Part shown: positions 7,824 through 26,316 of the stretch, piece after piece | How positions within the stretch are numbered: position 1 is the stretch's first letter | Layout: each line of letters starts with the position of its first letter | IMG/VR virus record: IMGVR_UViG_3300042898_004604 | Span: 1-30,163 of that record | Direction: 5' to 3' (one strand) | Length of the DNA stretch: 30,163 nucleotides | Source: a virus | The notes under the pieces: model-generated | Told to the model about the DNA's origin: nothing | What the model saw: the letters and a program-made list of their open reading frames with translations, nothing else | Database searches by the model: none | Program-made: the position numbers and the translations under genes

Positions 7824-8381
7824 ATGAAAATTATTAAATTCAGTGAATTTTTAAATGAAAATGTACATGACTCACCAGAGGAGTATATTAAGATAAGACT
7901 ATCTAAGTTAAAATCAAAGATAGAAAAGTATTTTGAATCAGTAGAGCCAGTTGATGATGATCTAATTAAAATGAGTGATGCTCTCAAGAGAGGTAAAGAC
8001 CAAGATAGTAAGAAATCAAAATTATCTTTAGCTGAGTTAGGACTTAATTTAGAATCATCAGAATTTAGTAAATATTCAGCAATAAATGATAGTATTAAAT
8101 TTATATTCACAGACTCTGAAGCGAGATATGATTTATATATAACAATTCCTTTAGATTTAGCAATTCCAAAAGATAAAGCTAAAGACTTCACAGATAAAGA
8201 TATTAAAAGTTGTTTTGTTAAATTTAAAAAATATGAATTAGAAAACTTTACATTAATCGGCCATATTTCAAAAAATTCAGAAATTGACTCTATTGATGAA
8301 GAATTCATAGTAGATTTAAAAATTGAACTTGATGATGAGTTCAATACTGATATTGAAAAAATTGAGATCGAAACTGAGTAA
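7824..8381 (+). CDS. tagged acidic protein, putative internal head protein, 185 aa
   Basis: The N-terminus MKIIKFSEFLNE fits the window's recurring tag and ends in LNE, a match to the (L/I)xE site of T4-type prohead protease. The rest is strongly acidic, Lys/Asp/Glu-rich and without cysteine-rich or membrane regions, with a C-terminal beta-like part (residues about 95-185). I do not recognise a catalytic family. By analogy with T4 internal proteins it may be packaged in the head and trimmed after Glu12; this is inference from the tag alone. The longer minus-strand frame across the same bases (Ser/Ile/Phe-rich, low complexity) is a shadow. Confidence 0.75.
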   Translation: MKIIKFSEFLNENVHDSPEEYIKIRLSKLKSKIEKYFESVEPVDDDLIKMSDALKRGKDQDSKKSKLSLAELGLNLESSEFSKYSAINDSIKFIFTDSEARYDLYITIPLDLAIPKDKAKDFTDKDIKSCFVKFKKYELENFTLIGHISKNSEIDSIDEEFIVDLKIELDDEFNTDIEKIEIETE

Positions 8382-8385
8382 ATTT

Positions 8386-8393
8386 TATAAATA
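8386..8393 (+). promoter_or_regulatory. T4-type late promoter TATAAATA
   Basis: Exact match to the T4 late promoter consensus, 18 bases upstream of the ATG at 8412 in the short gap after the preceding gene. In T4 this element is read by gp55 with gp33 and the sliding clamp. Position in a gap before a start supports function. Confidence 0.6.
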
Positions 8394-8411
8394 AAAATAA
8401 AATTTATCTTC

Positions 8412-8909
8412 ATGTACAATGTTGTAACTCGACCATCAATAATTTTAGAATTAAAGAAATCTAAATATTACAAGCAAAGCTTAGGACTTGTACCCACTGT
8501 GGAGAAAAATGGTTCTAGAGTATTCAATGATAAGGATACATTTAGTCACTTCTATAATACTCAATATAATACAAACATACTTAGACAAGGTACTATTGGT
8601 GATATTACATTCTATATAGATTATTATATAAATGAAGATTTAGTTGCCCTATATTTAAATACTGAGGAATTTATATATAATTATGAACCAAATGTGGTGA
8701 AGAAAAAAGGAATTGACTTTTATCTTGGATCTCTTTTTAAGAGACTAGAGAATGAAAATGAAGATAGAGTCAAAGAGGCTGAAGGTAAAAAAATAGAAAT
8801 AAAGAAGGATGCAAATCCAGATATTATTTTATCAAATCCTGGTAATGTTACTTATGATGATTTAAAAGCATACTTGGCTAAGAAAAGCCAAAATAGAATG
8901 TCATCCTAA
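8412..8909 (+). CDS. hypothetical late protein, 165 aa
   Basis: Function unknown. A perfect TATAAATA late promoter precedes it, so it is probably expressed with structural genes. The first 110 residues look like a compact alpha/beta domain (for example TFSHFYNTQYNTNILRQG and a following beta-rich part); residues about 115-140 are highly charged and helical; the tail has NPGNVTYDDLKAYLAKK. No membrane or signal segment. Its 3' end overlaps the convergent gene by nine bases. It may be a minor virion or assembly protein, but I cannot assign one. Confidence 0.75.
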   Translation: MYNVVTRPSIILELKKSKYYKQSLGLVPTVEKNGSRVFNDKDTFSHFYNTQYNTNILRQGTIGDITFYIDYYINEDLVALYLNTEEFIYNYEPNVVKKKGIDFYLGSLFKRLENENEDRVKEAEGKKIEIKKDANPDIILSNPGNVTYDDLKAYLAKKSQNRMSS

Positions 8910-9149
8910 GAAATTTCTAATCAAATAGCTACAAATTTCACTTTGTGTAGATAAGTCAAAATCCTCTAAATCATAAGCAAAGTCAAAATCATTGACTATT
9001 CTATGAAGAATAACCCTATTATCCTTTCTTCTCCACTCTATTGTGTGAAAGAAAAGTTCATCTGATATCATTATATCAATTACAACCTCATCAAGATCAA
9101 TTGATAACCACTTAATAACCGGAATTATATCATCCTTTATATTTGACAT
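8901..9149 (-). CDS. hypothetical protein, 82 aa
   Basis: Unrecognised small acidic protein, beginning MSNIKDDIIPVIKW and without membrane segments. It is convergent with, and overlaps by nine bases, the late gene at 8412-8909. Its ATG follows an AT-rich leader. The normal composition and start support a real gene, although it is short. Confidence 0.6.
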   Translation of the reverse strand: MSNIKDDIIPVIKWLSIDLDEVVIDIMISDELFFHTIEWRRKDNRVILHRIVNDFDFAYDLEDFDLSTQSEICSYLIRNFLG

Positions 9150-9233
9150 ATATTATATATTTTTTATAAAATACCAGTAAAAACAAAAGGTTTAAATTCA
9201 GTAAATTTTATATATACATGTCTAATAAAATCA

Positions 9234-9241
9234 TATATTTG
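9234..9241 (+). promoter_or_regulatory. Bacteroidota-type -7 element TATATTTG upstream of RNA ligase
   Basis: TATATTTG matches TAnnTTTG and lies 22 bases before the RNA ligase ATG at 9264, allowing a leader of about 15-18 bases. No clear -33 TTTG is seen. This would allow transcription by host RNA polymerase with its primary sigma factor. Confidence 0.4.
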
Positions 9242-9263
9242 TAAAAATTTGAATAAATTTTAA

Positions 9264-10607
9264 ATGAAAATTCATAACTACACACAGTTTATCAGAGAAT
9301 CTAACGATCTATCAACCCATTATCTTCCAACTTATGAGGATTGTGCGGAAATGTGTGCAAAAGAAAATGCTGCTTTCTATGAGTCTAAGTTTGTGATTGA
9401 TGGTTATAATATTTCGGTATTCAATTATCGCCTCGCTCAATATAAAGATTTTGTAACACCACTTGAGAATAAGCCAGATGTTAAAGCATATGAAATGAGA
9501 GGTTTAACCTTTGTATTCAATGAAGATGGATCGTTGTTTAGAAGATTCTTATTGCTTGAAAAGTTCTTTAATCTTAATCAAGTTCCAGAGGCTATGTACT
9601 CTATCGTTAAAAACTATAAGATTAAGTTTATCAATAACAAAGAGGACGGATCTATTGCATCATTCATTAAACTACCAAATGGTAAAGTTTTAGGTAAATC
9701 TAAAATGGGATTTGATAATGAACAATCTAATGGTATTAATAGAATATACAGAACTAGAACAGATGTTAAGACATTTGTTGATTGGTGTTTAAATAACGAT
9801 ATCACTTCTATTTTTGAGTATGTTTCACCTGCTAATCGTATTGTTCTAAGATATTTAGATGAAGACCTTATACTTTTAAGAATGAGAGATAACACAACTG
9901 GTAAGCATCTTGATATTAAGAACTATCTTGATAAGATTGATACTATTAGAATTGCACCATTTGAAGATGATAATAAAGATTTAGATTCTTTAATAGAAGT
10001 TATAGCTAAAGAAGTTGATAAAGAAGGTGTTATTGTTCAAGCTGAAGATAAATATGGCAAGGATTTTTTCTTTAAGTTAAAAACTCCTTGGTATATGGAA
10101 CGCCATGGATTATTGACTAATGATATTTACAGAGAACATATCATTATCGGATATATTTTAGATGATAAGATTGATGATATTCTTGGACAAATACCAGAAG
10201 ATGAAAAAGAAGCACACTTGAGAATTAATAAAATAATTCAAATAGTTAAAAAGGCAATTAATGATAAATCTGTTGAGATAGAAAGGGCTTATAAAGATTA
10301 TATAAAATCTGGAATTTCAAGAAAAGATTATGCGATAAATCAAAGAAAAAGTAATATTAATTTTGCATTTGTGATGGAGATGGTCAAAGCTGATGATATG
10401 AGAAGGATGTCTAAAGAACAGATTATAGACCATTATGATTCTATGGAAGCTTATGAAAAATCATTAAAAAGATGCGAACCATATGAAATGGCTAAAGAGT
10501 GGTTAAGAGATCTAACCAAAAGATTGGCTATTTCAAGAGAGTGGTTAAAAACAAAAGATAAAACTTTGTTTTTTCAAGATCCAGACACTGAAAATGAAGA
10601 TAATTAA
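9264..10607 (+). CDS. rnlA: T4 Rnl1-type RNA ligase with N-terminal internal-protein-like tag
   Basis: ATP-dependent RNA ligase that seals 5'-phosphate/3'-hydroxyl ends; T4 Rnl1 repairs tRNA cut by host anticodon nuclease. Visible family marks: MRGLTFVF...LLLEKFFNLNQ (78-106), the nucleotidyl motif KEDGS with Lys126, KSKMGF (145-150), FEYVSPANRIVL (184-195), EGVIVQ (254-259) and KLKTPWY (271-277). These align with T4 Rnl1 segments such as KEDGS at Lys99 and FEFVAPTNRIVL. The protein is 447 residues against 374 in T4: about 20 extra N-terminal residues hold the tag MKIHNYTQFIRE with a protease-like site IRE, and the C-terminal domain is about 40 residues longer. It is followed at once by an intrinsic terminator. 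Enzymatic class is secure; packaging in the head is inference. Confidence 0.93.
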   Translation: MKIHNYTQFIRESNDLSTHYLPTYEDCAEMCAKENAAFYESKFVIDGYNISVFNYRLAQYKDFVTPLENKPDVKAYEMRGLTFVFNEDGSLFRRFLLLEKFFNLNQVPEAMYSIVKNYKIKFINNKEDGSIASFIKLPNGKVLGKSKMGFDNEQSNGINRIYRTRTDVKTFVDWCLNNDITSIFEYVSPANRIVLRYLDEDLILLRMRDNTTGKHLDIKNYLDKIDTIRIAPFEDDNKDLDSLIEVIAKEVDKEGVIVQAEDKYGKDFFFKLKTPWYMERHGLLTNDIYREHIIIGYILDDKIDDILGQIPEDEKEAHLRINKIIQIVKKAINDKSVEIERAYKDYIKSGISRKDYAINQRKSNINFAFVMEMVKADDMRRMSKEQIIDHYDSMEAYEKSLKRCEPYEMAKEWLRDLTKRLAISREWLKTKDKTLFFQDPDTENEDN

Positions 10608-10631
10608 AGACACTTTTTAGTGTCTTTTTTT
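10606..10631 (+). terminator. intrinsic terminator after RNA ligase
   Basis: AAAGACACT and AGTGTCTTT form a 9-bp stem with a TTTT loop and a following T-run. The stem begins inside the RNA ligase stop codon. Confidence 0.85.
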
Positions 10632-10689
10632 ATTTTAACTAATAAACTTTTTTTAATTTTTAAATATAAAAGTATAAATTTATATTAAA

Positions 10690-10702
10690 TGACAATTTGT
10701 CA
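10690..10702. promoter_or_regulatory. palindromic operator candidate upstream of dnaK
   Basis: TGACAATTTGTCA is a perfect palindrome about one centre base, and a further TGTCA half-site lies at 10711-10715. It sits about 85-98 bases before the dnaK start, where an activator or repressor site would be expected. Confidence 0.45.
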
Positions 10703-10744
10703 GTGTATAGTGTCAAATATTACATTATAAACAATTTTATTATT

Positions 10745-10760
10745 TTGGCATACAACTTGT
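10745..10760 (+). promoter_or_regulatory. sigma-54-like promoter element upstream of dnaK
   Basis: TTGGCATACAACTTGT resembles the -24/-12 consensus TTGGCAC-N5-TTGC with one mismatch in each half. It ends 27 bases before the dnaK ATG at 10788. Together with the upstream palindrome it would fit an activator-dependent promoter, but a different sigma factor is possible. Confidence 0.35.
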
Positions 10761-10787
10761 AATTAAATTTTAAAAAAAATATATTAT

Positions 10788-12665
10788 ATGAGCAAAAAAA
10801 ATGTAATTATCGGAATTGATCTTGGGACCACAAATTCCGCGGTTGCCGTTGTTGAGGCTGGAGAACCAGTTATTATCAGTAATTCTGAAGGAAAAAGAAC
10901 TACACCTTCAGTTGTAGGTTTCACAGATAAAGATCGTAAAGTAGGAGATCCTGCTAAAAGACAATCATTAACAAATCCTACCAAAACAGTTTATTCAATT
11001 AAACGATTTATTGGAAAAGATTTTTCAAAATGTACTGACGAAATCAAAAGAGTACCTTATAAGGTAGTTAAAACTGGAAATAACGTTCCAGGTGTTGATA
11101 TTGATGATCGTAAATACACACCACAAGAAATATCAGCAATGATTCTTCAAAAAATGAAGAAAACTGCTGAAGATTATCTTGGACATGAAGTTACTCGTGC
11201 AGTAATTACAGTTCCTGCTTATTTCGGCGATGCTGAAAGAACAGCAACTATTGAGGCTGGTGAAATCGCAGGACTAATAGTTGAAAGAATTATTAATGAA
11301 CCAACTGCGGCAGCACTTGCATACGGTCTTGATAAGAAAAATAAAGAATCTAAAATCCTAGTATTTGATTGTGGCGGTGGAACACATGACGTATCAGTTC
11401 TTGAAATTGGTGACGGTGTGTTTGAAGTAAAATCTACTGATGGTGATGTTCACTTAGGTGGTGATGATTTTGATAACGCAATCATTAATTGGATGGTTGA
11501 TGAATTTAAAACTGAACATTCAATGGACTTATCAAAAGATCCAATGTCTCTTCAACGATTGAAAGATGCCGCTGAGAAAGCAAAGATTGAATTAAGTTCT
11601 GCATCTGAAAGTGATATTAATTTACCTTATATTACAGCTAAGGATTCAACACCTCTACACTTTGTTAAAAAATTAACACGTTCTAAGTTTGACCAATTAA
11701 CTTCCTCTCTTATAGATAGAGCTATCGCTTGTGCGAAAACAGCTTTAACTAAAGCAGGTATTAAGGCATCTGATATTGATGAAATTATTTTGGTTGGTGG
11801 TTCTACAAGAATCCCAGCTATCCAAGAAGCTATTGAAAAGAACTTCAATAAGAAACCAAATAAGTCTGTCAATCCAGATGAAGTTGTTGCTATTGGAGCA
11901 GCTATTCAAGGAGCTGTACTAACAGGGAATATAACTGATGTTTTGTTATTGGATGTAACACCACTTTCTTTAGGTATTGAAACAATGGGTGGTGTATTCA
12001 CTAAACTAATTGAATCTAATACTACTATCCCAACTCGTAAGTCTGAAAACTTCTCAACGGCAGCTGATAACCAATCATCTGTTGAGATCCATGTACTTCA
12101 AGGAGAAAGACCAATGGCTAGAGATAATAGATCACTAGGACGATTCCATTTGGATGGTATAATGCCGGCTCCTCGTGGTATTCCTAAAATTGAATGTACT
12201 ATTGATATTGATGCCAATGGCATACTATCTGTAACTGCTAAGGATCAAGCTTCAGGGAAAGAAAATAAAATCCGAATTGAAGGCGGATCTCAACTTTCTA
12301 AAGAAGAAATTGAACGTATGAAAGCAGATGCTGAAGCGAATGCTGAGTCTGATAGACTTGAAAAAGAAAAGGTTGATAAATTAAATCAAGCTGATAATAT
12401 GATTTTCCAAACTGAAAAACAAATTAAAGAGTTTGATGAAAAATTAACTGAATCTGATAAAACAGAATTGAATACTATTCTTGCGGATTTGAGTTCGGCT
12501 CATAAAGAACAAGATATAGATAAAATAGATTCAGAAATGAATAAATTAAATGAATCTTGGTCAAGAATCAGTACGAATTTATATTCTCAGGCTAGTTCAG
12601 AACAGACAGGTACTCCAGATACTCAACCGGATGTACAAGATGTTAACTTTGAAGAAGTTAAGTAA
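10788..12665 (+). CDS. dnaK: molecular chaperone DnaK (Hsp70)
   Basis: ATP-dependent Hsp70 chaperone. The 625-residue protein has the phosphate-1 motif [17 protein letters not shown] (9-25), the phosphate-2 motif [10 protein letters not shown] (193-202, with Cys where Leu is usual), [20 protein letters not shown], the linker region [16 protein letters not shown], the substrate-binding beta domain and a helical lid, ending in [10 protein letters not shown], the conserved C-terminus of Bacteroidota DnaK. It appears full length and intact, so it was probably captured from a host; base composition is somewhat less AT-rich than in neighbouring genes. With GrpE (15044) and DnaJ (16123) it completes a phage-borne chaperone set, possibly for capsid or replication-complex folding. 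Regulation: a palindrome and a -24/-12-like element upstream, an intrinsic terminator downstream. Confidence 0.98.
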
Positions 12666-12671
12666 AAAAAT

Positions 12672-12701
12672 AAAAACCCACTCAAATGAGTGGGTTTTTT
12701 T
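12672..12701 (+). terminator. intrinsic terminator after dnaK
   Basis: AAAAACCCACTC / GAGTGGGTTTTT stem with a four-base loop and T-run, seven bases after the dnaK stop. The A-run on the other side means it could also stop minus-strand transcripts coming from 14219. Confidence 0.9.
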
Positions 12702-12717
12702 ATTTAAAAACTTTTCT

Positions 12718-12725
12718 TATATTTG
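12718..12725 (+). promoter_or_regulatory. Bacteroidota-type -7 element TATATTTG, near-leaderless
   Basis: TATATTTG followed by only four bases (TAGA) before the ATG at 12730. It sits directly after the dnaK terminator, where a new promoter is needed, so the downstream gene is probably transcribed from its own start codon or nearly so. Confidence 0.5.
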
Positions 12726-12974: not shown

Positions 12975-14219
12975 TTACTCATCATCATCATCAAGATAGT
13001 CATATCCACCACCTGTATCGTTTAATAAACGATCAGCACTTACATCTTCCTTAGAGTTGCTTAACTCACCAGTACCACTATTAAGATAACATAGAGTATC
13101 GAGATATGGATAAGGCTCGTCTTCCCAGTGCTTTAAATCTACTATGTAGTCTGTAATTTTTGATTCATTTCCTCTCTCAGCTGTAAAATTACTACTAGAT
13201 GATTGATTTCTCTTACACCACCAGTTATTTTTACTTGCAAATTTCTTAAACAAATCAACATCAGAGTCATTGTTTGTGTAGATTCTATCCATTAAGATAT
13301 CTCCACTTCTTGTTGTCCAAAGTATTGCTCTTCCACAGATTTTATCAGAACGATATTGGCCGCCAACAATACTACCATTTTTAGACCACAAAACAACTAA
13401 CTTACAAACCTCTGGGTTATCTACATAGATATCAAATGTAGAATCCGGCATATCAGCCATACAAGATGATCCTAATGTACCATCATCACTTTCATAGTAA
13501 TCGTGATTATATAATTTTGAAATTGTAGAACCTTGTACTACTTCAAATCTACTAAATGCGTCGTTAATAATATCAATTGTGGCTTTATAATCATTTACAA
13601 ATTTCTCAATTTCTGAGTCACTTATGTTTGTATTTCCTGATCTATATAACGCTCTAACTAATCTTCCGATTCTTATTGGATTTCTTGATGTACCCCATAC
13701 TTTACTAAGAGTATCATCATGATCGGATAAAGCTTCTTTATTTATGACAGTTTTCATTCCTATATCAAAACTATTAGGACTCTGAATACATTCGAAATGA
13801 CAATATATTTTAGAATTTGATCCTACTATTTCTGATAGTATCTTACCAATAGTTCCAACTGTTGGTTTGTATATATCACCTTCAGGTCTTTCGAATCCAA
13901 GTTTATTGAATGTGTTTATATTAGAATCTGTATTTCTTAGAGTTCTACCACCTTGAGTAACTTTATAAAGTATCTCTCTACCACCAATAATTTCTTGAGC
14001 CTTTCTATCTGTTGTGAACATAACAGAATCATTGTCAGTACTTAAATCAATGAAGTTTTGTTGTAAATTTACATCTTTTGATCCTAAACTAATAAGATAA
14101 CTAGATACTGGCGATTGTATAGACTTTAAAACATTTAAAAACCCATTAGATAAAACCAATTTACTTTCTAGTAAAGCTTCTAATCTTTTTTCTGTTATAA
14201 ATTCTGAATAATTATACAT
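12975..14219 (-). CDS. tagged protein of unnamed phage family, 414 aa; putative internal head protein
   Basis: The N-terminus MYNYSEFITE has exactly the spacing of the T4 IPIII propeptide (MKTYQEFIAE), with a possible cleavage after Glu10 and another LxE site at LLE (residues 16-18). The body has a central NPIRIGRLVRAL...SDSEIEKFVNDYK segment (about 183-213) and a C-terminal domain with GTLGSSCMADMP, NPEVCKLVVLW, GRAILWTTRSGD and DRIYTNNDSDVDLF. I remember this C-terminal pattern from large phages but know no function; a conserved Cys after GSS makes a hydrolase or transferase conceivable. The acidic tail is encoded by a GAT-type run (ATC repeats near 12980). No late promoter is visible upstream. 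Confidence 0.85.
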   Translation of the reverse strand: MYNYSEFITEKRLEALLESKLVLSNGFLNVLKSIQSPVSSYLISLGSKDVNLQQNFIDLSTDNDSVMFTTDRKAQEIIGGREILYKVTQGGRTLRNTDSNINTFNKLGFERPEGDIYKPTVGTIGKILSEIVGSNSKIYCHFECIQSPNSFDIGMKTVINKEALSDHDDTLSKVWGTSRNPIRIGRLVRALYRSGNTNISDSEIEKFVNDYKATIDIINDAFSRFEVVQGSTISKLYNHDYYESDDGTLGSSCMADMPDSTFDIYVDNPEVCKLVVLWSKNGSIVGGQYRSDKICGRAILWTTRSGDILMDRIYTNNDSDVDLFKKFASKNNWWCKRNQSSSSNFTAERGNESKITDYIVDLKHWEDEPYPYLDTLCYLNSGTGELSNSKEDVSADRLLNDTGGGYDYLDDDDE

Positions 14220-15043: not shown

Positions 15044-15532
15044 ATGAAAACGAAAACGAAAACATCTGAAATTGACACTTCAACTCTTGAAGATGCAACT
15101 GTTGAAAAACCAATTAAAAAAAGCTCTAAACCTAAAAAAGATGTTGTAGAAGAGGATTGGAAAGATAAATACTACCGACTCTATGCTGACTTTGATAACT
15201 ATAAAAGGAGAGCTCAAAAGGAAAAAGAAGATTTGATTCTAGAAACCAAAACTAAATCTTTGAGTACTATTTTAGATCTAGACAATGATTTATATATTGC
15301 GAAGAAAAATATGCCAGATTCCGAAGGATTAAATCTAATTTTAAATAAAGTTCACACTTCTTTAAAGTCTCAAGGAATTGAAGAAATTCAAACTGATGAG
15401 TATGATTCGGATTTACACGAAGTTATTTCAATAATTGAAACTGGTGAGTCTAAAATAATAGATATTGTTTCAAAAGGTTATAAAATTAATGGTAAGCCTT
15501 TTAGATATCCAAAAATTATTCTATCTAAATAA
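15044..15532 (+). CDS. grpE: GrpE nucleotide exchange factor
   Basis: Nucleotide exchange factor that releases ADP from DnaK. The 162-residue protein has a charged, disordered start (about 1-40), a coiled-coil helix with YRLYADFDNYKRRAQKEKED (about 47-66), and the C-terminal beta domain with DEYDSDLHEVISI and VSKGYKINGKPFRYPKIILS, typical of GrpE. It is shorter than E. coli GrpE (197 residues) mainly at the N-terminus. It follows an unknown gene by two bases, and its stop overlaps the next start (TAATG). It pairs with the phage DnaK at 10788. Confidence 0.93.
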   Translation: MKTKTKTSEIDTSTLEDATVEKPIKKSSKPKKDVVEEDWKDKYYRLYADFDNYKRRAQKEKEDLILETKTKSLSTILDLDNDLYIAKKNMPDSEGLNLILNKVHTSLKSQGIEEIQTDEYDSDLHEVISIIETGESKIIDIVSKGYKINGKPFRYPKIILSK

Positions 15533-16122: not shown

Positions 16123-17166
16123 ATGAGTAAAGATTATTATCAAATACTTGAAGTTGACAGAGGATCATCAGACGATGAAATTAAGAAGTCATATAGAAAA
16201 ATGGCTATGAAGTACCATCCTGACAAGAATCCAGATAATCCACAAGCTGAAGAGAAATTTAAAGACTGTGCTGAAGCATTTGATGTTCTTTCTGATCCAC
16301 AAAAGAAGCAACAGTATGACCAATTTGGAACTGTTGGTGGTGGCGGAGGGAATCCATTTAATGGTGGATTTGGTGGATTTGAAGATATCTTTTCAAGATT
16401 TGGAGATTTCTTTGGACAAGGAGGTAGACAAAATAGAGTTAGAAAAGGACCAGATTTAAGAATGAAGGTTTCTATTAATCTAGAAGAAGTTATAAATGGT
16501 ACTAATAAGAAATTAAAGTATATCAGACAAACAAAATGCAATACATGTAGTGGTGCTGGTGGTAAGGATGTTCAAAAATGTAGCTCGTGTAATGGATCCG
16601 GTCAAAGAAGAGTTGTTCAAAATACACCATTTGGTACTATTCAACAACAAATTGTTTGTAATTCCTGTCAAGGTCAGGGAACACAAGTCAGAAATATTTG
16701 TTCAAATTGTAAAGGAAACGGTACAGTTCCGAATCAAGAGATAGTTGATATTCAAATTCCTAAAGGCGCGGCAAATGGAATAACATTCAATATGTCTAGT
16801 CATGGTAATTGGGCAAAGAATGTAGATACATTTGGTGATTTAATAATACAAGTTGAGGAAATATCAGATGCTATTTTTATAAGAGAACATAATAACCTTA
16901 TTTATGACCAATCAATTTCGGTGATTGATGCAATACTTGGTAAAGAAATTATTTTAAAAACACCCAATGGTGATATTAAATTTACAATAAGACCTGGTAC
17001 TTCTCATAAAGAAACTCTTAGAATACAAGGACAAGGCGTTCCAGATTTACAAATTGGAAGAGTTGGTGATCTTTTTATTAGAGTGAATGTTAAAATGCCA
17101 CAGTCTTTGACTATGGAGGAACGAAATATTTTAGAATCCTTAAAAGATAGTAAAAACTTTATTTAA
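16123..17166 (+). CDS. dnaJ: co-chaperone DnaJ (type I Hsp40)
   Basis: J-domain co-chaperone that stimulates DnaK ATPase and delivers substrates. The 347-residue protein has a J domain (1-68) with HPD at 32-34, a Gly/Phe-rich stretch (about 71-100), and four zinc-binding CxxC repeats: C139/C142, C153/C156, C179/C182 and C193/C196, then the C-terminal substrate-binding domains. It is a little shorter than typical type I DnaJ (about 370-380) at the C-terminal end. A TATAAATA late promoter lies upstream, and an intrinsic terminator lies just downstream inside the convergent glycosyltransferase gene, whose end overlaps dnaJ by four bases. Confidence 0.97.
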
Positions 17167-19146: not shown

Positions 19147-19578
19147 ATGAAACATATTAAATCTTTCAACGAATCTGTTATAGAAAATGATATTCAATCA
19201 TTAAAGGACATATTTATACATTTAAAAGATGATGGATATAAAGTAGAATACTTTACAAAAAAAGTGGTTAATGATATTGGTACTCTTGTATCTTCGATAG
19301 GTGTAAAGATTACAAATCCTACGGATGTAAATCAAATAATTAATTTTACTTCTTATGATGTTGTATCTTCACTTAAAGAAGCGGTTTCTTTAATGCAATC
19401 ACTCGATTATAAATATCAAGCAAGATATGCATTACATGGATTTAGTCCAGATAGATTTTATATCTATTTGGATGAAAGAGATCTCACTCAGTATATTTGG
19501 AATGGCCTTAGTACTAAAGAATTTAAGATAGATGAAAAAACAAGGCCGCATACAATTTATTTAGATTTTTATATATAA
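19147..19578 (+). CDS. tagged protein 1 of array (module A), 143 aa
   Basis: First of four consecutive tagged genes. The start MKHIKSFNES gives a possible prohead-protease-like site FNE before Ser10. The remaining 130 residues form what I call module A: LKDIFIHLKDDGYKVE near the start and an ending of TRPHTIYLDFYI. The N-terminal half of the next gene has the same pattern (ISDIFVHVKDSGLVVE and SYLDLTF), so the two are paralogues. No known family recognised. Spacing to the next gene is three bases. Confidence 0.75.
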   Translation: MKHIKSFNESVIENDIQSLKDIFIHLKDDGYKVEYFTKKVVNDIGTLVSSIGVKITNPTDVNQIINFTSYDVVSSLKEAVSLMQSLDYKYQARYALHGFSPDRFYIYLDERDLTQYIWNGLSTKEFKIDEKTRPHTIYLDFYI

Positions 19579-19581: not shown

Positions 19582-20505
19582 ATGAAACACATTAAAACAT
19601 ATAATTCATTCAAACTAAATGAAGAACTTGATATCGACATTGATGGTGTCGCAAATCAAAATATAATAGAGGAAATTTCCGATATATTTGTTCATGTGAA
19701 GGACTCTGGTCTTGTAGTTGAAGATGTTTATTCAGGGAGTGCTTTATCTATGGGTAATAGAGATATAGTTACAGATCATAATGATTTTTCATCGATTTTG
19801 GGATCAGATGGAAGATATGTGGGTAGTTATAAAAGTCTATCAATTAGATTAAAAAACGAAAATACGTCATCTTTTACTATAGAAGAAAATCTTTTTAGTG
19901 AATTAGAATCAGCAATTAAACATGTTGAATCTGAATTTAACTTACAGCTGAATAGTATTTATCTAAGAACTCTAGGTGGTGTTTGGTTTAATAGTGTCAA
20001 TACAATGGAAAGATATATTAATGAATTACCGTTTGCTAAAAAAAGTTCTCTAAGACATGTTTCTTATTTAGATTTAACATTTAGAGATATAGAAGAAGAT
20101 ATTGATGATTCTATAAGTGTTAAAGAATCGGTGAGTGTTAATGAACTTGAATCTATTTTTGATGATGTAAAAGATATTTTAAGAGATTTGGAAGATGATC
20201 ATGAAATAGATGTTGATGCTATTATCGGAAAATATAGAAAGTATTCTACAAAATCGTGGAAAGAATCGGATGATTCGGAACTAAAAAAATCAATTAATAT
20301 AGATTTAAAAGATAATAAATATAACTTTTTCAGATTCAATGATCACATATTACCCACTATAAAAAAACTTAGATCTTTTTTATCAGAATATGATTTAAAT
20401 ATTGATATTGAATTGGTAAGTGAAAATGAATTTTATTCATTGGATGAATTTATAGAAGAATATGGTAGTGAAGAATTTCACGAACTTGGAATAATAATTT
20501 ATTAA
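19582..20505 (+). CDS. tagged protein 2 of array (modules A+B), 307 aa
   Basis: Starts MKHIKTYNSFKLNEE, with an LNE site after residue 14. Residues about 30-170 match module A of the gene before (ISDIFVHVKDSGLVVE; ending HVSYLDLTF). Residues about 190-307 are module B (VKDILRDLEDDHEIDVDA, FNDHILPTIKKL, YSLDEFIEEYGSEEFHEL, ending IIIY), which is repeated in the next gene. It is therefore a two-module fusion within the array. The protein is very acidic. Function unknown. Confidence 0.75.
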   Translation: MKHIKTYNSFKLNEELDIDIDGVANQNIIEEISDIFVHVKDSGLVVEDVYSGSALSMGNRDIVTDHNDFSSILGSDGRYVGSYKSLSIRLKNENTSSFTIEENLFSELESAIKHVESEFNLQLNSIYLRTLGGVWFNSVNTMERYINELPFAKKSSLRHVSYLDLTFRDIEEDIDDSISVKESVSVNELESIFDDVKDILRDLEDDHEIDVDAIIGKYRKYSTKSWKESDDSELKKSINIDLKDNKYNFFRFNDHILPTIKKLRSFLSEYDLNIDIELVSENEFYSLDEFIEEYGSEEFHELGIIIY

Positions 20506-20520
20506 AATAATATATAATTT

Positions 20521-21015
20521 ATGAAATATTTAAAAAGATTTGAAAATTATAATGATTTAGAGGATGAAAATCTAAATAATAGAGATATAGAGGAGGATCT
20601 TTTAATAGTAAAGGATATCCTAACAGATTTAGAGGATTCTTATGAAATAAATTTTGATATATCTGTCGGAAAATTTTTTAAGGATTCTTCTGTTAGAAAT
20701 CTATGGGGATCAGTACCGGTAAGAGGAGGTATTCATGTTAATTCAATTAATATAAATTTAGATTTATTAACATTAGACGATCATTTAGGAGAAGAGGAAT
20801 CAGAGGAAGAAGGTAAATATTTTATATTTAATGAACAAATTTTACCTACTATAAATACGATTAAATCACATTTAGAGGAAGTAAATATTGTTATTGTTAA
20901 AAATATTGGCGATTTATTTTATGATAGCTCGAAAAACAAATATTATCCACTTGATGAATTCATCAGAGAACATGGAAGTGAAAAGTTTAATGAACTTGAA
21001 ATAATACTTTATTAA
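20521..21015 (+). CDS. tagged protein 3 of array (module B), 164 aa
   Basis: Starts MKYLKRFENYNDLED; the tag is present but the exact (L/I/F)xE site is less clear here. The body is module B: VKDILTDLEDSYEINFDI, FNEQILPTINTIKSH, YPLDEFIREHGSEKFNEL and an ending IILY, matching the second half of the preceding gene. Acidic and soluble. No function recognised; likely a duplicate that has diverged. Confidence 0.75.
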   Translation: MKYLKRFENYNDLEDENLNNRDIEEDLLIVKDILTDLEDSYEINFDISVGKFFKDSSVRNLWGSVPVRGGIHVNSININLDLLTLDDHLGEEESEEEGKYFIFNEQILPTINTIKSHLEEVNIVIVKNIGDLFYDSSKNKYYPLDEFIREHGSEKFNELEIILY

Positions 21016-21018: not shown

Positions 21019-21498
21019 ATGAAATATTTAAAATCATTTAAAGAATCTAACGGATACATTAATCCAAAAATAATGGATAGAAAACCTCCACAATTTATTG
21101 GAGATATTAAACAATCAGTTGAAATTAGAATTGATGTTGAAGCTATTGGTCATGCTCTTTCAAGACAGTTTAGACATGGTGTTAATGATACTAGTGGTAA
21201 AATTGAAGCAGGAATAACAAAAGATGAAATACTAGATAATATTGAGTCGGCTGTTGAAGAATTAACAATTGCACTAATGCAGGATAGATTTGATATTTAT
21301 CAAGATGAAGATGATTATCCAACTCGTGGAGTTAAAGCAGGAGAGCCAAATAGATTTGTAATAAAGAATAAAGAATCTTATTTAAATATTGTTTGTCAAT
21401 TAGAACCAGGTGATAACGAATTTACATTAACTGTTATTACAGTTATGAGAAAAGAAGATTTCAAGGCTTATAGAGGCCAATTTGTATTAGAAGTTTAA
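21019..21498 (+). CDS. tagged protein 4 of array, possible small RNase/toxin-like fold, 159 aa
   Basis: Starts MKYLKSFKES with a possible FKE site before Ser10, three bases after the preceding gene. The body differs from modules A and B: VEIRIDVEAIGHALSRQF, ITKDEILDNIESAVEEL, RFVIKNKESYLNIVCQLE and FTLTVITVMRKEDF. The order (His/Arg-bearing helix, helix, then beta strands with an ITV-type strand) recalls DUF4258/BECR-type small nuclease domains, but no catalytic set can be proven by eye. It overlaps the convergent GMP reductase by four bases. Confidence 0.75.
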   Translation: MKYLKSFKESNGYINPKIMDRKPPQFIGDIKQSVEIRIDVEAIGHALSRQFRHGVNDTSGKIEAGITKDEILDNIESAVEELTIALMQDRFDIYQDEDDYPTRGVKAGEPNRFVIKNKESYLNIVCQLEPGDNEFTLTVITVMRKEDFKAYRGQFVLEV

Positions 21499-22439: not shown

Positions 22440-22440
22440 C

Positions 22441-22755
22441 TTAGTAGAAAATATATTTTTTATTATCATCTACGATACAATACATAGATATTGGATAAAT
22501 TTTAGGATTCTCCCCAGTATCATCAACTATGAACCTGCAAGATCCGTCAATTATATCAGGATTTGTTATTTTCAAGGTGGCATTATTTAAACCTTTAATA
22601 ACAGTATATAGTATATCATCTAAGACCGGAGTAATTTCTATATAATTTTTATTAGTAATAAGTTTTCCTAAGTATCCTTCTTCAAAATAAGCTTTTTTAA
22701 TAACGGATTCAAGCTCATTTGTTTTCAAAAATTCAATTTTAATTTCGCTTTTCAT
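22441..22755 (-). CDS. hypothetical protein, 104 aa
   Basis: Unrecognised small soluble protein directly upstream of guaC on the same strand; its stop abuts the guaC start, so translation is probably coupled. Mixed alpha/beta appearance, with a C-terminal MYCIVDDNKKYIFY. No motif assignable. Confidence 0.7.
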   Translation of the reverse strand: MKSEIKIEFLKTNELESVIKKAYFEEGYLGKLITNKNYIEITPVLDDILYTVIKGLNNATLKITNPDIIDGSCRFIVDDTGENPKIYPISMYCIVDDNKKYIFY

Positions 22756-22781
22756 AATTTTAAATATTAATTAGACCTCAC

Positions 22782-23147
22782 TTATAAGGTAAATAAATCA
22801 GAAAGTTTTAAATCTCTTTGAATTTCCTTTGATAGAATTTCATCCAATTCCAATCCTTCTACTTCAAGTTTGATAATTTTATGGTCCCTATTATCAGACA
22901 ACCCACGTATTGATTGGATTGTAAATTTAGCATCATAATAGATACCATCTATTTTATAAATGACGTCTCTGAAGCTCTTTCCCTTCAATCCCATCAAATG
23001 TATATTAGATGAGCATTTTATCTTTAAAGAATAGTAGGAAAAATTAGACCACATATTTTCTCTGTCTTTTTTAGACAGAGGTCCAATATATTTAAATTCA
23101 TCTAATACTTCTATTTTATCAAATCCGTAAAATTGTATCCAGTTCAT
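22782..23147 (-). CDS. hypothetical protein, 121 aa
   Basis: Unrecognised. I start at the ATG at 23147 (MNWIQFYGFDKIEVLDEF); an in-frame TTG at 23192 would add 15 residues and cannot be excluded. The C-terminus KEIQRDLKLSDLFTL is faintly like that of the protein at 3227-3676. It lies 26 bases upstream of the next minus-strand gene and probably heads the operon that ends with guaC. Confidence 0.65.
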   Translation of the reverse strand: MNWIQFYGFDKIEVLDEFKYIGPLSKKDRENMWSNFSYYSLKIKCSSNIHLMGLKGKSFRDVIYKIDGIYYDAKFTIQSIRGLSDNRDHKIIKLEVEGLELDEILSKEIQRDLKLSDLFTL

Positions 23148-23283
23148 TATTTCTTTTTTATCATGTGTAAAAATACGAAATATTTTCAACAATACAAATT
23201 TGTTACATTTTTATCTAAATATATAGATATATAAAGGCTTTTGGGTTAAATGAGGAGCTTTTACAAAAAAAAATATAAAAAAA

Positions 23284-24207
23284 ATGAAAAATTTACTAAT
23301 ACTTATTTTCTCTTTGTTTAGTGTGTTTTGTTCGGCTCAAACCTTTTATGGGTATGAGGTGTGTGACTATAATCAAGGTTTAAACAGCACCAATACAAGT
23401 GTATTAACAAGCAGATCTAATCCCAGCAAGGCTTTAGGTATTCCACAAAACGTCGATGTCGAGACAGGAACTATTAATTTCTTTTCTTTGGGATTTGGTG
23501 GAAATATAACTTTAAAGTTGCAAAATCCAATAGAGGTTCTACCAACAACAACATTAAGTATATACGAAACTACTTATGGTTATAACAATTGTAGTATTTA
23601 TGGTGAAAGAGCTGAAGTTTATGTTTCTAAAAACAATTTAAACTATTTTTTACTAGGTGAGACATGTTTAAATAACAATACCATCTTTGATGTTAAACAA
23701 TCTGGATTGGATACTATACAATATGTTAAAATTGTGGATATAAGCGATCCATCTAAATTTTCAAATTTTAATTTCGTAAGTGATGGATATGATCTTGATG
23801 GTATTGAAGTTTTTAATAATGGTCCTCTACCAATCGAATTAAAGTACTTTGGAGTTGATTTTAATCAGCCTTATTTAAATATAAAGGTTACTACTGCTTC
23901 TGAGGCTAATACTGATAAATTAATTATAGAATCATCTACGGATGCATCCAATTTTAATTACTTGACAGAATTTCAAGCAGCAGGATTTTCATCTTTTGAA
24001 AGAGTTTATGATAAAAAGTTAATCTTCGAACCAAAATCTCAAATTACATATTTTAGATTAGTTGAAGTTGATTTTGATGGTGAGCAATTTTATTTTGATA
24101 TAATTGTATCAAATACAAGAAATCTAGATAAAGTTGAAATGTATTATTTTGATCTTTTAGGAAGACGAGTTAATTCGAATGATGCTATTTTCAAATTAAA
24201 AAAATAA
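23284..24207 (+). CDS. secreted Bacteroidota-type surface protein with shortened C-terminal sorting-like region
   Basis: The 307-residue protein has a clear signal peptide (MKNLLILIFSLFSVFCSA, cleavage likely before Gln19; no proper lipobox). Residues about 20-175 look like a beta-sandwich domain of bacterial surface proteins (NPSKALGIPQN, FFSLGFGGNITLKL, RAEVYVSKNN, GYDLDGIEV). Then comes the Bacteroidota signature PLPIELKYF, an FN3-like stretch (TTASEANTDKLIIESS, YFRLVEVDFDGEQFY) and VEMYYFDLLGRRV, which resembles the start of a type IX secretion C-terminal domain but stops about 15 residues later instead of continuing. It was probably captured from a host and may alter the host surface or be a virion component. 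Function unproven. Confidence 0.85.
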   Translation: MKNLLILIFSLFSVFCSAQTFYGYEVCDYNQGLNSTNTSVLTSRSNPSKALGIPQNVDVETGTINFFSLGFGGNITLKLQNPIEVLPTTTLSIYETTYGYNNCSIYGERAEVYVSKNNLNYFLLGETCLNNNTIFDVKQSGLDTIQYVKIVDISDPSKFSNFNFVSDGYDLDGIEVFNNGPLPIELKYFGVDFNQPYLNIKVTTASEANTDKLIIESSTDASNFNYLTEFQAAGFSSFERVYDKKLIFEPKSQITYFRLVEVDFDGEQFYFDIIVSNTRNLDKVEMYYFDLLGRRVNSNDAIFKLKK

Positions 24208-24223
24208 TATATAAAAAAATTCG

Positions 24224-24231
24224 TATATTTG
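24224..24231 (+). promoter_or_regulatory. Bacteroidota-type -7 element TATATTTG, near-leaderless
   Basis: TATATTTG followed by TATC and then the ATG at 24236: the same four-base spacing as at 12718-12730. It lies in the 28-base gap after the secreted-protein gene. Confidence 0.5.
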
Positions 24232-24235
24232 TATC

Positions 24236-24739
24236 ATGAAAATAATAAGAGCAAGATTAAAATCAATGTTTGGATCGAAAGTTTCGGAATTCATTACTGT
24301 TAAAGGTCGTATAAAATCTTTAATTATAGAAAATACAGAGGATAACTTTGATTTTGTAATTGATGAGTCTGGTAGGAAGTCTGTAAAGTCTTTTGGTCCG
24401 GATTTCATCGATGCAAACCTGGTTGGTACTCAAATACCAATAGTTGATAATTCATATTTTGCAAAATTTAATGAAGACGGTACAATTGAAGTTGTTACTT
24501 CAGAGAATGAAGGAGCCCTACCAAGAGAATCAACAGTTAAACAATTAGAGAAGATCAGAAAAGCGACCAAGTCAGTAACGATTGATGATAGAGTTCCAAA
24601 ACTTAAAGGAGCTAATTTAGGATATGAGAGAAACTATGTAGACTCAGGAATTGAATCACATGAAGATTTTGAAAAGAAAAACAAATCTTTTATACCTGGT
24701 TGGAATCTTAAACATTTAAATAGTCCTTTTAAGAAATAA
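24236..24739 (+). CDS. hypothetical protein, 167 aa
   Basis: Unrecognised. Basic N-terminus (MKIIRARLKSMFGSKV), a beta-like middle part (SEFITVKGRIKSLIIE, FDFVIDESGRKSV), and a lysine-rich C-terminal third ending GWNLKHLNSPFKK, perhaps extended. It has its own TATATTTG element and a terminator inside the opposing gene downstream. Although it begins MKII, it lacks the F-x-x-F-(I/L)-x-E tag. Confidence 0.75.
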   Translation: MKIIRARLKSMFGSKVSEFITVKGRIKSLIIENTEDNFDFVIDESGRKSVKSFGPDFIDANLVGTQIPIVDNSYFAKFNEDGTIEVVTSENEGALPRESTVKQLEKIRKATKSVTIDDRVPKLKGANLGYERNYVDSGIESHEDFEKKNKSFIPGWNLKHLNSPFKK

Positions 24740-24740
24740 T

Positions 24741-25085
24741 TTATTTCCAAAAAGCTTGTATAACAAGAATAACAAAACACAATCCCAAACAGATTGTGTT
24801 TTTTGTGTTTATACCCTCGCCTAAAAGATAGTAGTTAAACAATGTGAATATAAGAATACCCATAACAAATTGTAGAATTCTTAAAGACCAAGAATTTCCG
24901 AATCCTTCAACACCAAATTTTGTTGAATAATAATACATTAAAGTAATAGGGATGCCGGTCAAACAAACTAAAATAATATTGTTTTTAAAAAAATCCCACT
25001 TGAATTGACCAAACATTTGAAACCAAGTAACTATCTGGGCAAAAAATAATACAACAACACACAAAAATATTTTTGACCAATTCAC
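24741..25085 (-). CDS. integral membrane protein, four predicted helices, 114 aa
   Basis: Small membrane protein with hydrophobic stretches at about 5-22, 35-52, 68-88 and 95-112 and a short C-terminus ending in Phe-Trp-Lys; the pattern MNWSKIFLCVVVLFFAQ followed by WFQMFGQFKWDFFKNN resembles small DMT-like membrane proteins found in large phages. The start codon is GTG at 25085; no ATG is available nearby. It is convergent with the preceding gene (one-base gap) and divergent from the tagged phosphoesterase. Role unknown, possibly altering the host inner membrane. Confidence 0.75.
   Translation of the reverse strand: MNWSKIFLCVVVLFFAQIVTWFQMFGQFKWDFFKNNIILVCLTGIPITLMYYYSTKFGVEGFGNSWSLRILQFVMGILIFTLFNYYLLGEGINTKNTICLGLCFVILVIQAFWK
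24774..24804 (+). terminator. intrinsic terminator inside the opposing membrane-protein gene
   Basis: AAAACACAATC and GATTGTGTTTT form a perfect 11-bp stem with a 7-base loop and a short T-run on the plus strand, about 35 bases after the stop of the gene at 24236-24739. It lies within the 3' coding part of the minus-strand gene. Confidence 0.7.
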
Positions 25086-25117
25086 AATCTTTGTATCTAA
25101 AATTTAATAAATAGTTT

Positions 25118-25654
25118 ATGATGAAAAAGTATTTAGAATTTATAAAAGAAGCAAAATCACGATATGAATACGGATGTGTTATGGTTGATTTCAGTTTTGC
25201 TAACTGGTCAGAATTATTAGAATCAATAGATTCTGATGATGTTTATAAAGTTGAGGGTAAAAATTATGGACTACAACCAAGACCACACCTAACATTATTA
25301 TATGGTATACATGATACTGTAAGTGATGAGGAAATATTAAATTGTTTTGATGGATTCACAGAAGATGATTTTAAAGTTCAATTAGATGGTGTCTCTATAT
25401 TTGAAAATCCAGAATTTGATGTTGTTAAACTTGGTGTTGTTTTAACTCCTAGAATTAAAGAAATAAATAAAAGACTATCTGATCTACCTAACTCAAATCA
25501 GTTTCCGGAATATAAGCCACATATCACTTTGGCATATGTTAAAAAAGGTCTAGGTAAAAAATATGTTAATCCTGATTATAAATATGAAATTAAAACCATA
25601 TCAAAAATTGTTTATACAAGACCAGATACTACCGAATTAAATATTCAACTATGA
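25118..25654 (+). CDS. tagged 2H phosphoesterase (2'-5' RNA ligase / cyclic phosphodiesterase superfamily)
   Basis: The 2H superfamily hydrolyses 2',3'-cyclic phosphates or cyclic oligonucleotides with two HxT motifs. Both are present: RPHLTLLYG with His57/Thr59 and KPHITLAYV with His135/Thr137, at typical spacing for a 178-residue protein. Counting from the second ATG (25121) the start is MKKYLEFIKEA, matching the T4 IPIII start MKTYQEFIAEA at eight of eleven positions, including the cleavage-site spacing. The mature domain would begin at Ala11. Possible roles are RNA end healing with the tagged RNA ligase, or degradation of host immune cyclic nucleotides as shown for T4 Acb1, itself a 2H enzyme. 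Which substrate is unknown. Overlaps the next gene by four bases. Confidence 0.88.
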   Translation: MMKKYLEFIKEAKSRYEYGCVMVDFSFANWSELLESIDSDDVYKVEGKNYGLQPRPHLTLLYGIHDTVSDEEILNCFDGFTEDDFKVQLDGVSIFENPEFDVVKLGVVLTPRIKEINKRLSDLPNSNQFPEYKPHITLAYVKKGLGKKYVNPDYKYEIKTISKIVYTRPDTTELNIQL

Positions 25655-26316
25655 AAATAAAAACATTCAAATTATTTGAATCAAGTTCGGAAGACTATTT
25701 TCCATCTTTAGAAGAGGTTAAAGACTATTTTTACGATTTTACTGATGAATTAGATATAAATATTAATTATTTTCAATCTGGATATAAATACTTTTTAAAA
25801 CCTTACAATGTTTATCAATCAGGTAATAACTTTGGTATTATTTTGAAAGATAAATCAAATTATATTGATATTATAAATACAGATTTATCAAACACAAGAT
25901 TACAATTATCCTCTGGATATGCTACGATAGACAGTTATAATAGAGGAAAAGAGGAATGGACAGATTCAACAATCTATGCTATAAAAAATGGAGCTAAAGT
26001 ATATAATCACATTATGTTTGAATTTAGTGATTATTCTTTTAGAGAAGAATACTTACCAAGATTAGTAGAGTGTTTAAAAAGATTTTATAATGAAACCAAT
26101 TTCAGACCTTACGGTGAGATTTGGACAGAAGAAAGGGCTGTGAGATACGGTGTTATAGACCAAGACTCAGGAATTGAAACTGGAGATGAAACCGTATTAC
26201 TTTATGGATTTTCTGGATTATTTGTGGATTGTTCGGACGAAGAGTACAGAAAACTATGTGAAATATATAGGGAAGACCGTGAAAATAATGATCTAATAAC
26301 TAAATATTTTATTTAA
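25651..26316 (+). CDS. tagged protein, module-B-like, 221 aa
   Basis: Starts MKIKTFKLFESS, with an LFE site before Ser11. The start of the body (VKDYFYDFTDELDININYF) and a later YLPRLVECLKRFYNET recall module B of the array at 19582-21015, so it may be a more distant relative. Remaining parts (YDGEIW-like region, GDETVLLYGFSGLFVDCSDEEY) are unassigned. It overlaps the 2H phosphoesterase gene by four bases, making the two a coupled pair of tagged genes. Confidence 0.75.
   Translation: MKIKTFKLFESSSEDYFPSLEEVKDYFYDFTDELDININYFQSGYKYFLKPYNVYQSGNNFGIILKDKSNYIDIINTDLSNTRLQLSSGYATIDSYNRGKEEWTDSTIYAIKNGAKVYNHIMFEFSDYSFREEYLPRLVECLKRFYNETNFRPYGEIWTEERAVRYGVIDQDSGIETGDETVLLYGFSGLFVDCSDEEYRKLCEIYREDRENNDLITKYFI

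Follow-up and report, generated by a model that had tools for sequence, protein, structure and literature searches.

An N-terminal tag of huge-phage proteins, probably a T4-type capsid-targeting propeptide, matches the repeats of a putative protease-scaffold fusion

The subject of this study is a short N-terminal tag carried by proteins that are encoded in a 30,163-base fragment, a virus record (IMG/VR IMGVR_UViG_3300042898_004604) whose whole length is called the window below, and in the genomes of related huge phages. An initial annotation of nine window genes had likened this tag to the capsid-targeting sequence (CTS) of the T4 internal proteins and had read it as a mark for capsid targeting, packaging and injection, a reading that our analysis supports in part. 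Judged by its sequence pattern, the tag is real, probably one signal in several spellings, and its core matches the repeat unit of a protein in which a gp21-like protease is joined to a tandem array. We consider it probable that the tag is a T4-type capsid-targeting propeptide that imitates one unit of the head scaffold. For the wider proposal of a readable loading code, with the scaffold unit copied onto some 70-180 proteins per genome and the virion serving as a delivery capsule for an injected proteome, we put the chances at about even.

The records nearest to the window are those of uncultured huge phages. Identity to the window is 80% for SSB and 65% for the RNA ligase in LR745206 (634,780 bases), and 78% and 63%, respectively, in LR756502 (642,428 bases); LR756504 (636 kb) and LR756501 (735 kb) are more distant relatives. 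These four complete genomes of 634-735 kb are among the largest phages reported, and the largest huge-phage genomes have been placed in the Mahaphage clade, with Bacteroidetes as predicted hosts (PMC7162821). Genes were called throughout with a simple script that takes the longest open reading frame (ORF), and their starts are approximate.

Scale of tagging

The tag model consists of three anchored weight matrices trained on the N-termini of the four complete relatives, with the window excluded, and its threshold of 9.86 corresponds to the best 0.2% of 12,168 internal methionine positions. Counts in the four genomes are in-sample, and those in the window, LR756500, Lak, T4 and KVP40 are out-of-sample. 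Across the four relatives 477 of 3,852 genes are tagged (7.7-18.1% per genome), namely 145 of 941 in LR745206, 176 of 971 in LR756502, 71 of 924 in LR756504 and 85 of 1,016 in LR756501. In the same genome order, residues 3-10 contain the strict motif [YFW]xxF[hydrophobic]xE in 23, 26, 19 and 36 cases, where its frequency at residues 31-130 of these proteins predicts 1.1, 1.0, 2.0 and 1.0, and the bare motif F[ILVM]xE peaks at protein residues 7-11 in LR745206, LR756502 and 400 kb of LR756501.

All nine genes of the initial annotation are present in the window. Eight of them pass the model, and the ninth, at 25651, fails it with a score of 2.1. Seven of the passing genes are among the 41 that were called greedily, where chance would give about 0.1 gene (0.2% of 41); the eighth, at 7824, is displaced by an antisense ORF and was added by hand. 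No further tag above threshold was found among all ATG, GTG and TTG starts of ORFs of at least 25 codons on both strands of the window, the next-best start (9.8) belonging to a 33-codon TTG ORF within another gene.

The proposed likeness to T4 is borne out as well, since the model ranks ipII and ipIII second and third of 273 T4 ORFs. Four T4 ORFs pass: gene 61.1 at the top, the two internal-protein genes and one likely chance hit. Gene 61.1 (NC_000866, 18966-19130) encodes a 54-aa hypothetical protein that starts with MKTFKEFIKED, and from this start we predict that gp61.1 is an internal head protein. In KVP40 (220 of 245 kb), 4 of 376 genes pass, and in LR756500, a phage more distantly related (400 of 462 kb), 42 of 534 are tagged, with 20 occurrences of the strict motif against 0.39 expected.

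Two forms of the tag

The initial annotation had described one shared motif. The tag is indeed recognisable as such, but it splits into two forms. Form I, (K)YxxF(I/L)xE or near, is found in window genes 7824, 9264, 14219 and 25118, and form II, MK(H/Y)(L/I)Kx(F/Y), in window genes 19147, 19582, 20521 and 21019; further examples of form II are MKHLKKYNES, MKHLKTYKIFES and MKYLKTFESF. Form II is the commoner form in LR745206, LR756502 and LR756504, though not in LR756501.

In T4 IPIII, targeting is reported to depend mainly on residues 4 and 7 and processing on residues 8 and 10 (PMC9026906). Form II keeps a hydrophobic residue 4 and an aromatic residue 7 in 174 of 199 and in 87 of 96 proteins, against 109 of 2,317 untagged ones, in a count of proteins longer than 95 aa at positions that are also part of the form II model. 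Form I has an aromatic/hydrophobic pair three residues apart, shifted relative to IPIII, which is largely a matter of construction. A hydrophobic-x-Glu site lies at residues 5-25 in 124 of 125 form I proteins (by construction), 164 of 199 form IIa and 86 of 96 form IIb proteins, compared with 47, 82 and 29 of the same proteins at residues 61-81. The initial annotation had cited a cut after Glu10 in T4; most tags do have a hydrophobic-x-Glu site, but in form II the glutamate stands elsewhere, as it does in T4 ipI, which starts with MKTFKEFTSTTTPVSTITEA and retains the targeting residues while its likely cut site is shifted. The site is weakest for window gene 20521.

These differences raise the possibility that form I alone is the head-loading signal and that form II is a different signal, or a fast-diversifying family with a common start. 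Form II ranges from a minority of tagged genes in LR756501 (27 of 85) to the majority in LR756502 (145 of 176), many tagged genes of LR756502 are clustered, with as many as 10 next to one another, and form II proteins gave few Pfam matches (11 families among the 145 of 343 proteins scanned, which came from LR745206, LR756502 and the window). However, the tags of LR756500, such as MKYIKEYEEFILEA, combine both forms, form II retains the two residues at which T4 targeting is said to reside (PMC9026906), and T4 ipI is built alike. Moreover, of 35 ortholog pairs of LR745206 and LR756502 that are tagged on both sides, 31 have the same form, and two of the other four have switched between forms I and II; a further 20 pairs carry the tag on one side only. 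A separate form II, which would overlap with the explanation we prefer, therefore seems unlikely to us, although it is the strongest of the alternatives. Dense runs of form II genes can be seen in LR756502 at about 10,000-45,000 (loci L042-L044).

A movable and conserved peptide

The initial annotation had also held that the tag moves as a module, and the wider comparison agrees, as the tag precedes many body families and the same domains are found with and without it. By BLAST, the bodies of tagged proteins form 139 families for 145 proteins in LR745206, 162 for 176 in LR756502, 66 for 71 in LR756504 and 77 for 85 in LR756501, where bodies count as unrelated if BLAST gives no match at 1e-4. 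The window bodies, too, are mostly unrelated as initially described, with no detectable similarity except between 19582 and 20521, which fall into one BLAST family.

Two protein families illustrate this behavior. Judged by eye, 8 of 12 loci encode an RNA ligase with a tag, and two of these loci look identical; the remaining four are near-identical, lack the tag and encode a protein that starts at the conserved domain. This count leaves out a thirteenth locus, L256, which is cut. The homologs in LR756504 and LR756501 are likewise untagged. In the family of the window gene at 14219, 60 of 74 viral members are tagged, a count that includes near-identical members, omits 3 of 77 loci that gave no ORF, and is biased towards tags by taking the best-scoring methionine near the start; several untagged members begin at the domain. 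In 337 pairs of tagged and untagged homologs, which are not independent and many of which come from one large family, the tagged N-terminus is longer by a median of 20 residues, by at least 8 residues in 69% of pairs, and is shorter by at least 8 in 18%. In 1,730 untagged pairs the N-termini differ by a median of 4 residues, and by at least 8 in 38%.

The peptide itself is conserved. In 31 same-form ortholog pairs of LR745206 and LR756502, identity is 62% in the tag core, 28% in the next ten residues and 53% in the body. In 345 untagged ortholog pairs, by comparison, residues 2-13 are 34% and the bodies 56% identical. Within tags, codons are chosen as in the rest of the genome apart from mild shifts for Ile and Leu, and MKYLK is spelled by 17 different DNA sequences across 41 genes. 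It thus appears that selection acts on the peptide.

These observations bear on the idea that the tagged genes have a common start because A-rich DNA favours certain translation starts, or because they share a recent ancestor. It is true that an AT-rich element, TTAATATA, is enriched before tagged genes (e.g., at window positions 7779-7823 and 20476-20520). TAATATA occurs within 60 nt upstream of 66 of 145, 80 of 176, 33 of 71 and 21 of 85 tagged genes in LR745206, LR756502, LR756504 and LR756501, respectively, and of 112 of 774, 102 of 768, 87 of 813 and 125 of 888 untagged genes (score below 4). However, the ordinary codon usage, the many spellings, the mostly dissimilar bodies and the higher conservation of the tag than of the residues after it make this idea extremely improbable. 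The portal and protease genes are also preceded by the element, and tagged genes have fewer upstream TAnnTTTG boxes, which we take to be of the Bacteroidetes type. We considered TTAATATA as a late promoter that marks virion genes and rejected it, because untagged genes bearing the element include matches to DnaB, UvsX, SSB and primase (95 of 141 kept genes were scanned, with 3 genes that have both elements and 19 others excluded).

A protease joined to a repeat array

Cleavage of the tag by a gp21-like prohead protease was part of the initial reading. No such protease is encoded in the 30,163-base window, which is a fragment, but one is present in all four complete relatives, and a 204 kb contig carries both a gp21-like protease and a tagged RNA ligase 75% identical to that of the window (L249, L232). 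In each of the four relatives, one protein of about 700-810 aa contains an S77-like stretch. Residues 1-485 of the LR745206 protein match the head maturation protease family phrog_207 (E 2.7e-30). H85 and S140 of T4 gp21, presumably the catalytic His and Ser, align with H72 and S127 of this protein, and both are invariant in 39 relatives. The head genes of LR745206 follow the T4 order: the portal gene at 193127 (phrog_213, 2.2e-59) lies about 4 kb upstream of the protease gene at 198546, with four called genes between them, and the major head protein gene at 200752 (phrog_138, 3.8e-24) is the next gene after the protease. The S77 Pfam cut-off is exceeded by LR756500 (2.3e-12) and Lak-A1 (3.1e-16), whose protease domains share 42% and 43% identity with the query domain, L168, and by the T4 and KVP40 controls. 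Relatives of this domain occur in 716 records. The alignment of 39 protease sequences gave no PDB sequence match at E <= 1. A second, short S77-like paralog of 178 aa is encoded in LR756501 (L075, 1-20000; 11314-11850 of the locus, minus strand); it is probably an inactive copy, because the aligned His and Ser are both missing (GELGYP, RPRAAG).

Cyanophage P-TIM40 has the same order of portal, protease and major capsid genes, with separate gp21-like and gp22-like genes, and related cyanophage proteins are annotated as scaffold and protease. From the place of the gene, its repeats and these annotations we infer that the huge-phage protein combines a gp21-like protease with a scaffold in the role of gp22.

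The middle of this fusion is a tandem array with an exact 14-residue spacing. The motif occurs in 10-12 copies in 73 of 80 viral loci; the other seven end at contig ends, and one of these, L232, shows 10 copies before the end. Among the spacings in viral loci, 653 are of 14 and 60 of 42 residues. The unit reads K-N-I-A-Y-S-E-Y-(L/I)-A-E-N-L-D, and its core, Y-x-x-Y-(I/L)-A-E, matches the core of the tag. Both tyrosines and the glutamate are identical in all 786 units, although the search pattern itself requires the glutamate and an aromatic pair. When [YF]xx[YF][ILVM]xE was sought inside 3,893 proteins, the four fusions took ranks 1-4 with 14, 11, 11 and 11 copies, and the next proteins had 7 and 3. 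An 83-aa protein of LR745206 (L033, 460001-480000; about 435-686 of the locus, minus strand) has four scaffold-type units by eye and no protease, and is possibly a separate core protein.

A matrix built from the scaffold units only offers a link between tag and scaffold that is not circular, because no tag was used in building it. Among its 100 best N-termini, of 3,847, 54 are tagged (about 12 expected), and compared with internal stretches, N-termini are enriched 1.9-fold at 2 bits and, increasingly with score, 10-fold at 12 bits, where 5 of 3,847 N-termini and 5 of 39,403 internal stretches score.

Tags and repeats also occur together. At 34 loci with a protease fused to at least three motif copies, 32 of 536 distinct genes are tagged (including at most four look-alike nuclease genes, MNKIKED../MNKLKEG.., which are probably false), compared with 1 of 261 at 18 loci with a stand-alone protease (P 3.7e-5); the strict motif occurs 14 times and once, respectively (P 0.028). 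These 52 of 80 loci were picked for usable length before tags were counted. Tags and repeats are jointly absent in one relative, Lak-A1: no repeats were seen by eye in its fused protease, its tags are at background level (3 of 610 genes pass, about 1.2 expected), and the strict motif is absent (0 against 0.67). In LR756500 the repeats appear degenerate by eye.

Short amphipathic helices serve many purposes, and the tag could direct localisation or oligomerisation without any connection to the head, e.g., to a replication compartment, with a convergent likeness to the scaffold. Such a role is very unlikely in our view, given that the internal motif is concentrated in one type of protein, the head protease-scaffold, that the scaffold-only matrix favours tagged N-termini, that the tag-trained model retrieves T4 internal proteins, and that Lak, without repeats, shows only background tags.

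The tagged proteins

Family scans covered 139 form I proteins, 3 of 142 having been dropped because they cross a piece boundary. They matched 46 Pfam families; among the matches listed are the 2'-5' RNA ligase superfamily (4), Acb1 (4), T4-type RNA ligase (3), PPK2 (2), radical SAM (2), a SMODS-associated NUDIX protein (1) and methyltransferases. In comparison, 145 untagged proteins of LR745206 and LR756502 matched 86 families, with helicases, Hsp70 and glycosyltransferases among the matches listed. Of ten larger tagged proteins searched against PHROG, eight had no match and two matched families of unknown function.

Tagged genes are less conserved than others. Among genes found in at least three of the four genomes 73 of 882 are tagged, compared with 404 of 2,970 others (P 1.5e-5), and reciprocal orthologs in LR756502 exist for 46 of 145 tagged but 354 of 796 untagged genes of LR745206. 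Both trends fit the pattern of T4 Ip1-3 (PMC12373910). In the initial annotation, the tag was not expected to be as frequent in ordinary replication genes; it is indeed rarer in conserved genes, but it is not absent from replication genes, as a few primase and polymerase-exonuclease matches attest.

The tag might instead dock proteins on the scaffold for head assembly, or for destruction with the core, with few or none of them injected. The match between tag and scaffold concerns the prohead only, and a few tagged proteins resemble lysozyme or endolysin and possibly have other roles. However, the nameable cargo consists mostly of enzymes and many tagged proteins are orphans, and the tagged set varies between relatives as the ortholog counts show, whereas assembly factors should be conserved. 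The T4 internal proteins with such a leader, moreover, are injected anti-restriction proteins (PMC12373910). We therefore regard such docking with little or no injection as improbable.

Tagged genes of the window

Four genes of the window carry form I. The gene at 7824-8381 (plus strand; score 21.3) encodes 185 aa with the tag MKIIKFSEFLNE|N, the bar here and below marking the predicted cut; no Pfam or PHROG family scored above cut-off, and relatives at L263, L264 (92%) and L265 (44%) align from residue 1. The T4 Rnl1-type RNA ligase gene (9264-10607, plus; score 21.1) has its tag, MKIHNYTQFIRE|S, before the conserved domain (LPTYEDC...), and the protein matches PF09511 (E 3.2e-18) and phrog_562 (E 2.7e-55). 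At 25118-25654 (plus; score 20.4), a protein of the LigT/2H-type 2'-5' RNA ligase superfamily begins with (M)MKKYLEFIKE|A; it matches PF13563 (E 1.2e-8) and, below cut-off, the anti-CBASS Acb1 family PF23474 (E 3.2e-5, 24.1 bits against 27).

The remaining form I gene, at 12975-14219 on the minus strand (score 16.5), encodes 414 aa starting with MYNYSEFITE|K, which is followed by a second possible site, LLE|S. Its structure model has a mean pLDDT of 91.5, with a well-defined body and the tag as a separate helix at residues 4-16 (pLDDT about 60-70). The family (L377-L453) is large, is without a Pfam match and has invariant SC and GRA..W motifs. No PDB structure matched the model at E <= 0.001; 14 predicted viral proteins did, one of them a putative hydrolase and the rest uncharacterised or unnamed. 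An acetyltransferase-like assignment was rejected, as the best PDB structure match (E 0.014, 126 columns, low TM-scores) is too weak to assign a function, and two matches of a PDB sequence search (E 0.24 and 0.3) were taken as chance.

The four form II genes stand in a row on the plus strand. They encode 143 aa without a convincing family (19147-19578; MKHIKSFNE|S; score 27.9), 307 aa (19582-20505; MKHIKTYNSFKLNE|E; score 28.0), 164 aa with a body related to the preceding one (20521-21015; MKYLKRFENY; score 27.8; the first hydrophobic-x-Glu of the stretch searched is at residues 23-25) and 159 aa (21019-21498; MKYLKSFKE|S; score 23.5). Directly before them, a gene at 18354-19133 matches a head-tail adaptor (phrog_211, E 2.1e-13).

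The gene that falls below the threshold (25651-26316, plus; 221 aa; score 2.1 against 9.86) starts with MKIKTFKLFESS. It lies between the LigT-like and SSB genes, like the tagged gene W1_446618 (MKYLTKYKLFESS) of LR745206, and because of this shared position its start may be a drifted tag, an argument from position only. Elsewhere in the window, genes at 10788-12665, 15044-15532 and 16123-17166 resemble those for DnaK, a GrpE-like protein and DnaJ; annotated phage dnaK genes match a short part of the first, and the GrpE and DnaJ readings were made by eye.

Discussion

In T4, internal proteins enter the core by means of their CTS, and gp21 cuts both the core and the leaders (PMC5694885). On the reading that the huge-phage tag imitates a scaffold unit, protease and scaffold would be one protein, whose middle is predicted to form a long helix of 10-12 tandem 14-residue units, and a tagged protein would present one such unit as a short N-terminal helix. 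The tag would dock among the scaffold rods, and the cargo would in this way be built into the prohead core. Cuts that the protease half makes at (I/L/F)-x-Glu, in tags as well as in scaffold units, would clear the core, and the freed cargo would stay in the head and enter the next cell with the DNA. This cargo would be a large and fast-changing set that includes RNA repair (the T4-type RNA ligase), 2H phosphoesterases of the anti-CBASS kind, methyltransferases, PPK2 and many orphans, and it would plausibly act before phage gene expression starts.

Several observations weigh against this reading. With regard to the tag, no hydrophobic-x-Glu pattern stands at residues 4-20 in 104 of the 477 tagged proteins, the model misses T4 ipI, and form II can be connected to the scaffold unit only by way of intermediates, namely the LR756500 tags such as MKYIKEYEEFILEA and the two form-switching ortholog pairs. 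T4 has the tag without such repeats, which are therefore not required for it, and the co-occurrence of repeats and tags is confounded by lineage. With regard to the match, the tag matrix finds fewer sites in the fusions (7, 6, 5 and 3 above 8 bits), and by this matrix the LR756504 fusion does no better than an unrelated protein of 2,458 aa, with which it ties; the scaffold-only matrix retrieves few of the tagged proteins, as 40 of 3,847 N-termini score above 6 bits, or 3.4 times the internal rate. The S77 Pfam score is 20-25 bits in the four closest relatives, where the cut-off is 27. The structure model of the protease-scaffold, made from the 39-sequence alignment, is poor (mean pLDDT 58, pTM 0.24) and lends no structural support to the protease fold or to docking; it shows one helix over residues 236-449, with block means of 56-82. 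Finally, 8.3% of the conserved genes are tagged, and among the matches listed for form I are two primase families, a polymerase and a polymerase-exonuclease, with one member each.

The principle of loading by a CTS is known from T4; the scale and the match to scaffold repeats appear to be new. As in T4 IPI, IPII and IPIII, a short N-terminal leader stands on proteins that otherwise share no sequence, and it combines hydrophobic or aromatic residues spaced by three with a hydrophobic-x-Glu site. The leader is the only common part of T4 Ip1-3, each of which blocks a different GmrSD (PMC12373910), and CTS-like leaders have been noted on other T-even proteins (PMC9026906). In contrast to T4, with its three proteins of this kind and with gp21 and gp22 as distinct proteins, the huge phages have 71 to 176 tagged genes per genome, enzymes can be recognised among the tagged bodies, and the core of the leader corresponds to the repeats of the protease-scaffold. 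Their protease is like gp21 in sequence family, in its His and Ser positions and in the order of portal, protease and major capsid genes, but it is part of a single protein, about 700-810 aa long, that contains 10-12 tandem 14-residue units. P-TIM40, in contrast, has two separate genes, and the Lak fusion has no repeats.

Other phages load proteins in ways that differ from this. In P1, an N-terminal stretch of DarB suffices to load a reporter into the head (PMC9024508); that report finds no consensus by BLAST among Dar N-termini, whereas the huge-phage proteins share one. The large phages PhiKZ and SPN3US also package numerous proteins and eject them, and propeptides are removed by a head protease (PMC5694885, PMC10052503, PMC13282480). 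Six of the eight N-terminal propeptides reported for SPN3US are 111-254 residues long and the other two are 20 and 24 (PMC10052503), and the accessible parts of these reports describe no single short tag common to many proteins. In the open-licence literature, as far as its text was accessible, we found no description of such a huge-phage tag or of its match to scaffold repeats.

If the proposed reading is true, the head contents of some of the largest phages could be read from sequence, with 71 to 176 candidate injected proteins per genome. These are mostly proteins of unknown function, many of them plausibly counter-defences, and they would become targets for experiments. How a short leader loads the head would be explained by the match between tag and repeat: a protein disguised as a scaffold unit would be taken up, and the protease of that scaffold would cut it free. 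Tags in related phages could, in addition, be predicted from the scaffold repeat. According to a 2017 report, no gp22 counterpart had been confirmed in any giant phage (PMC5694885), and the fusion array is a scaffold candidate for this group. The finding also suggests an address tag with which proteins might be loaded into very large heads.

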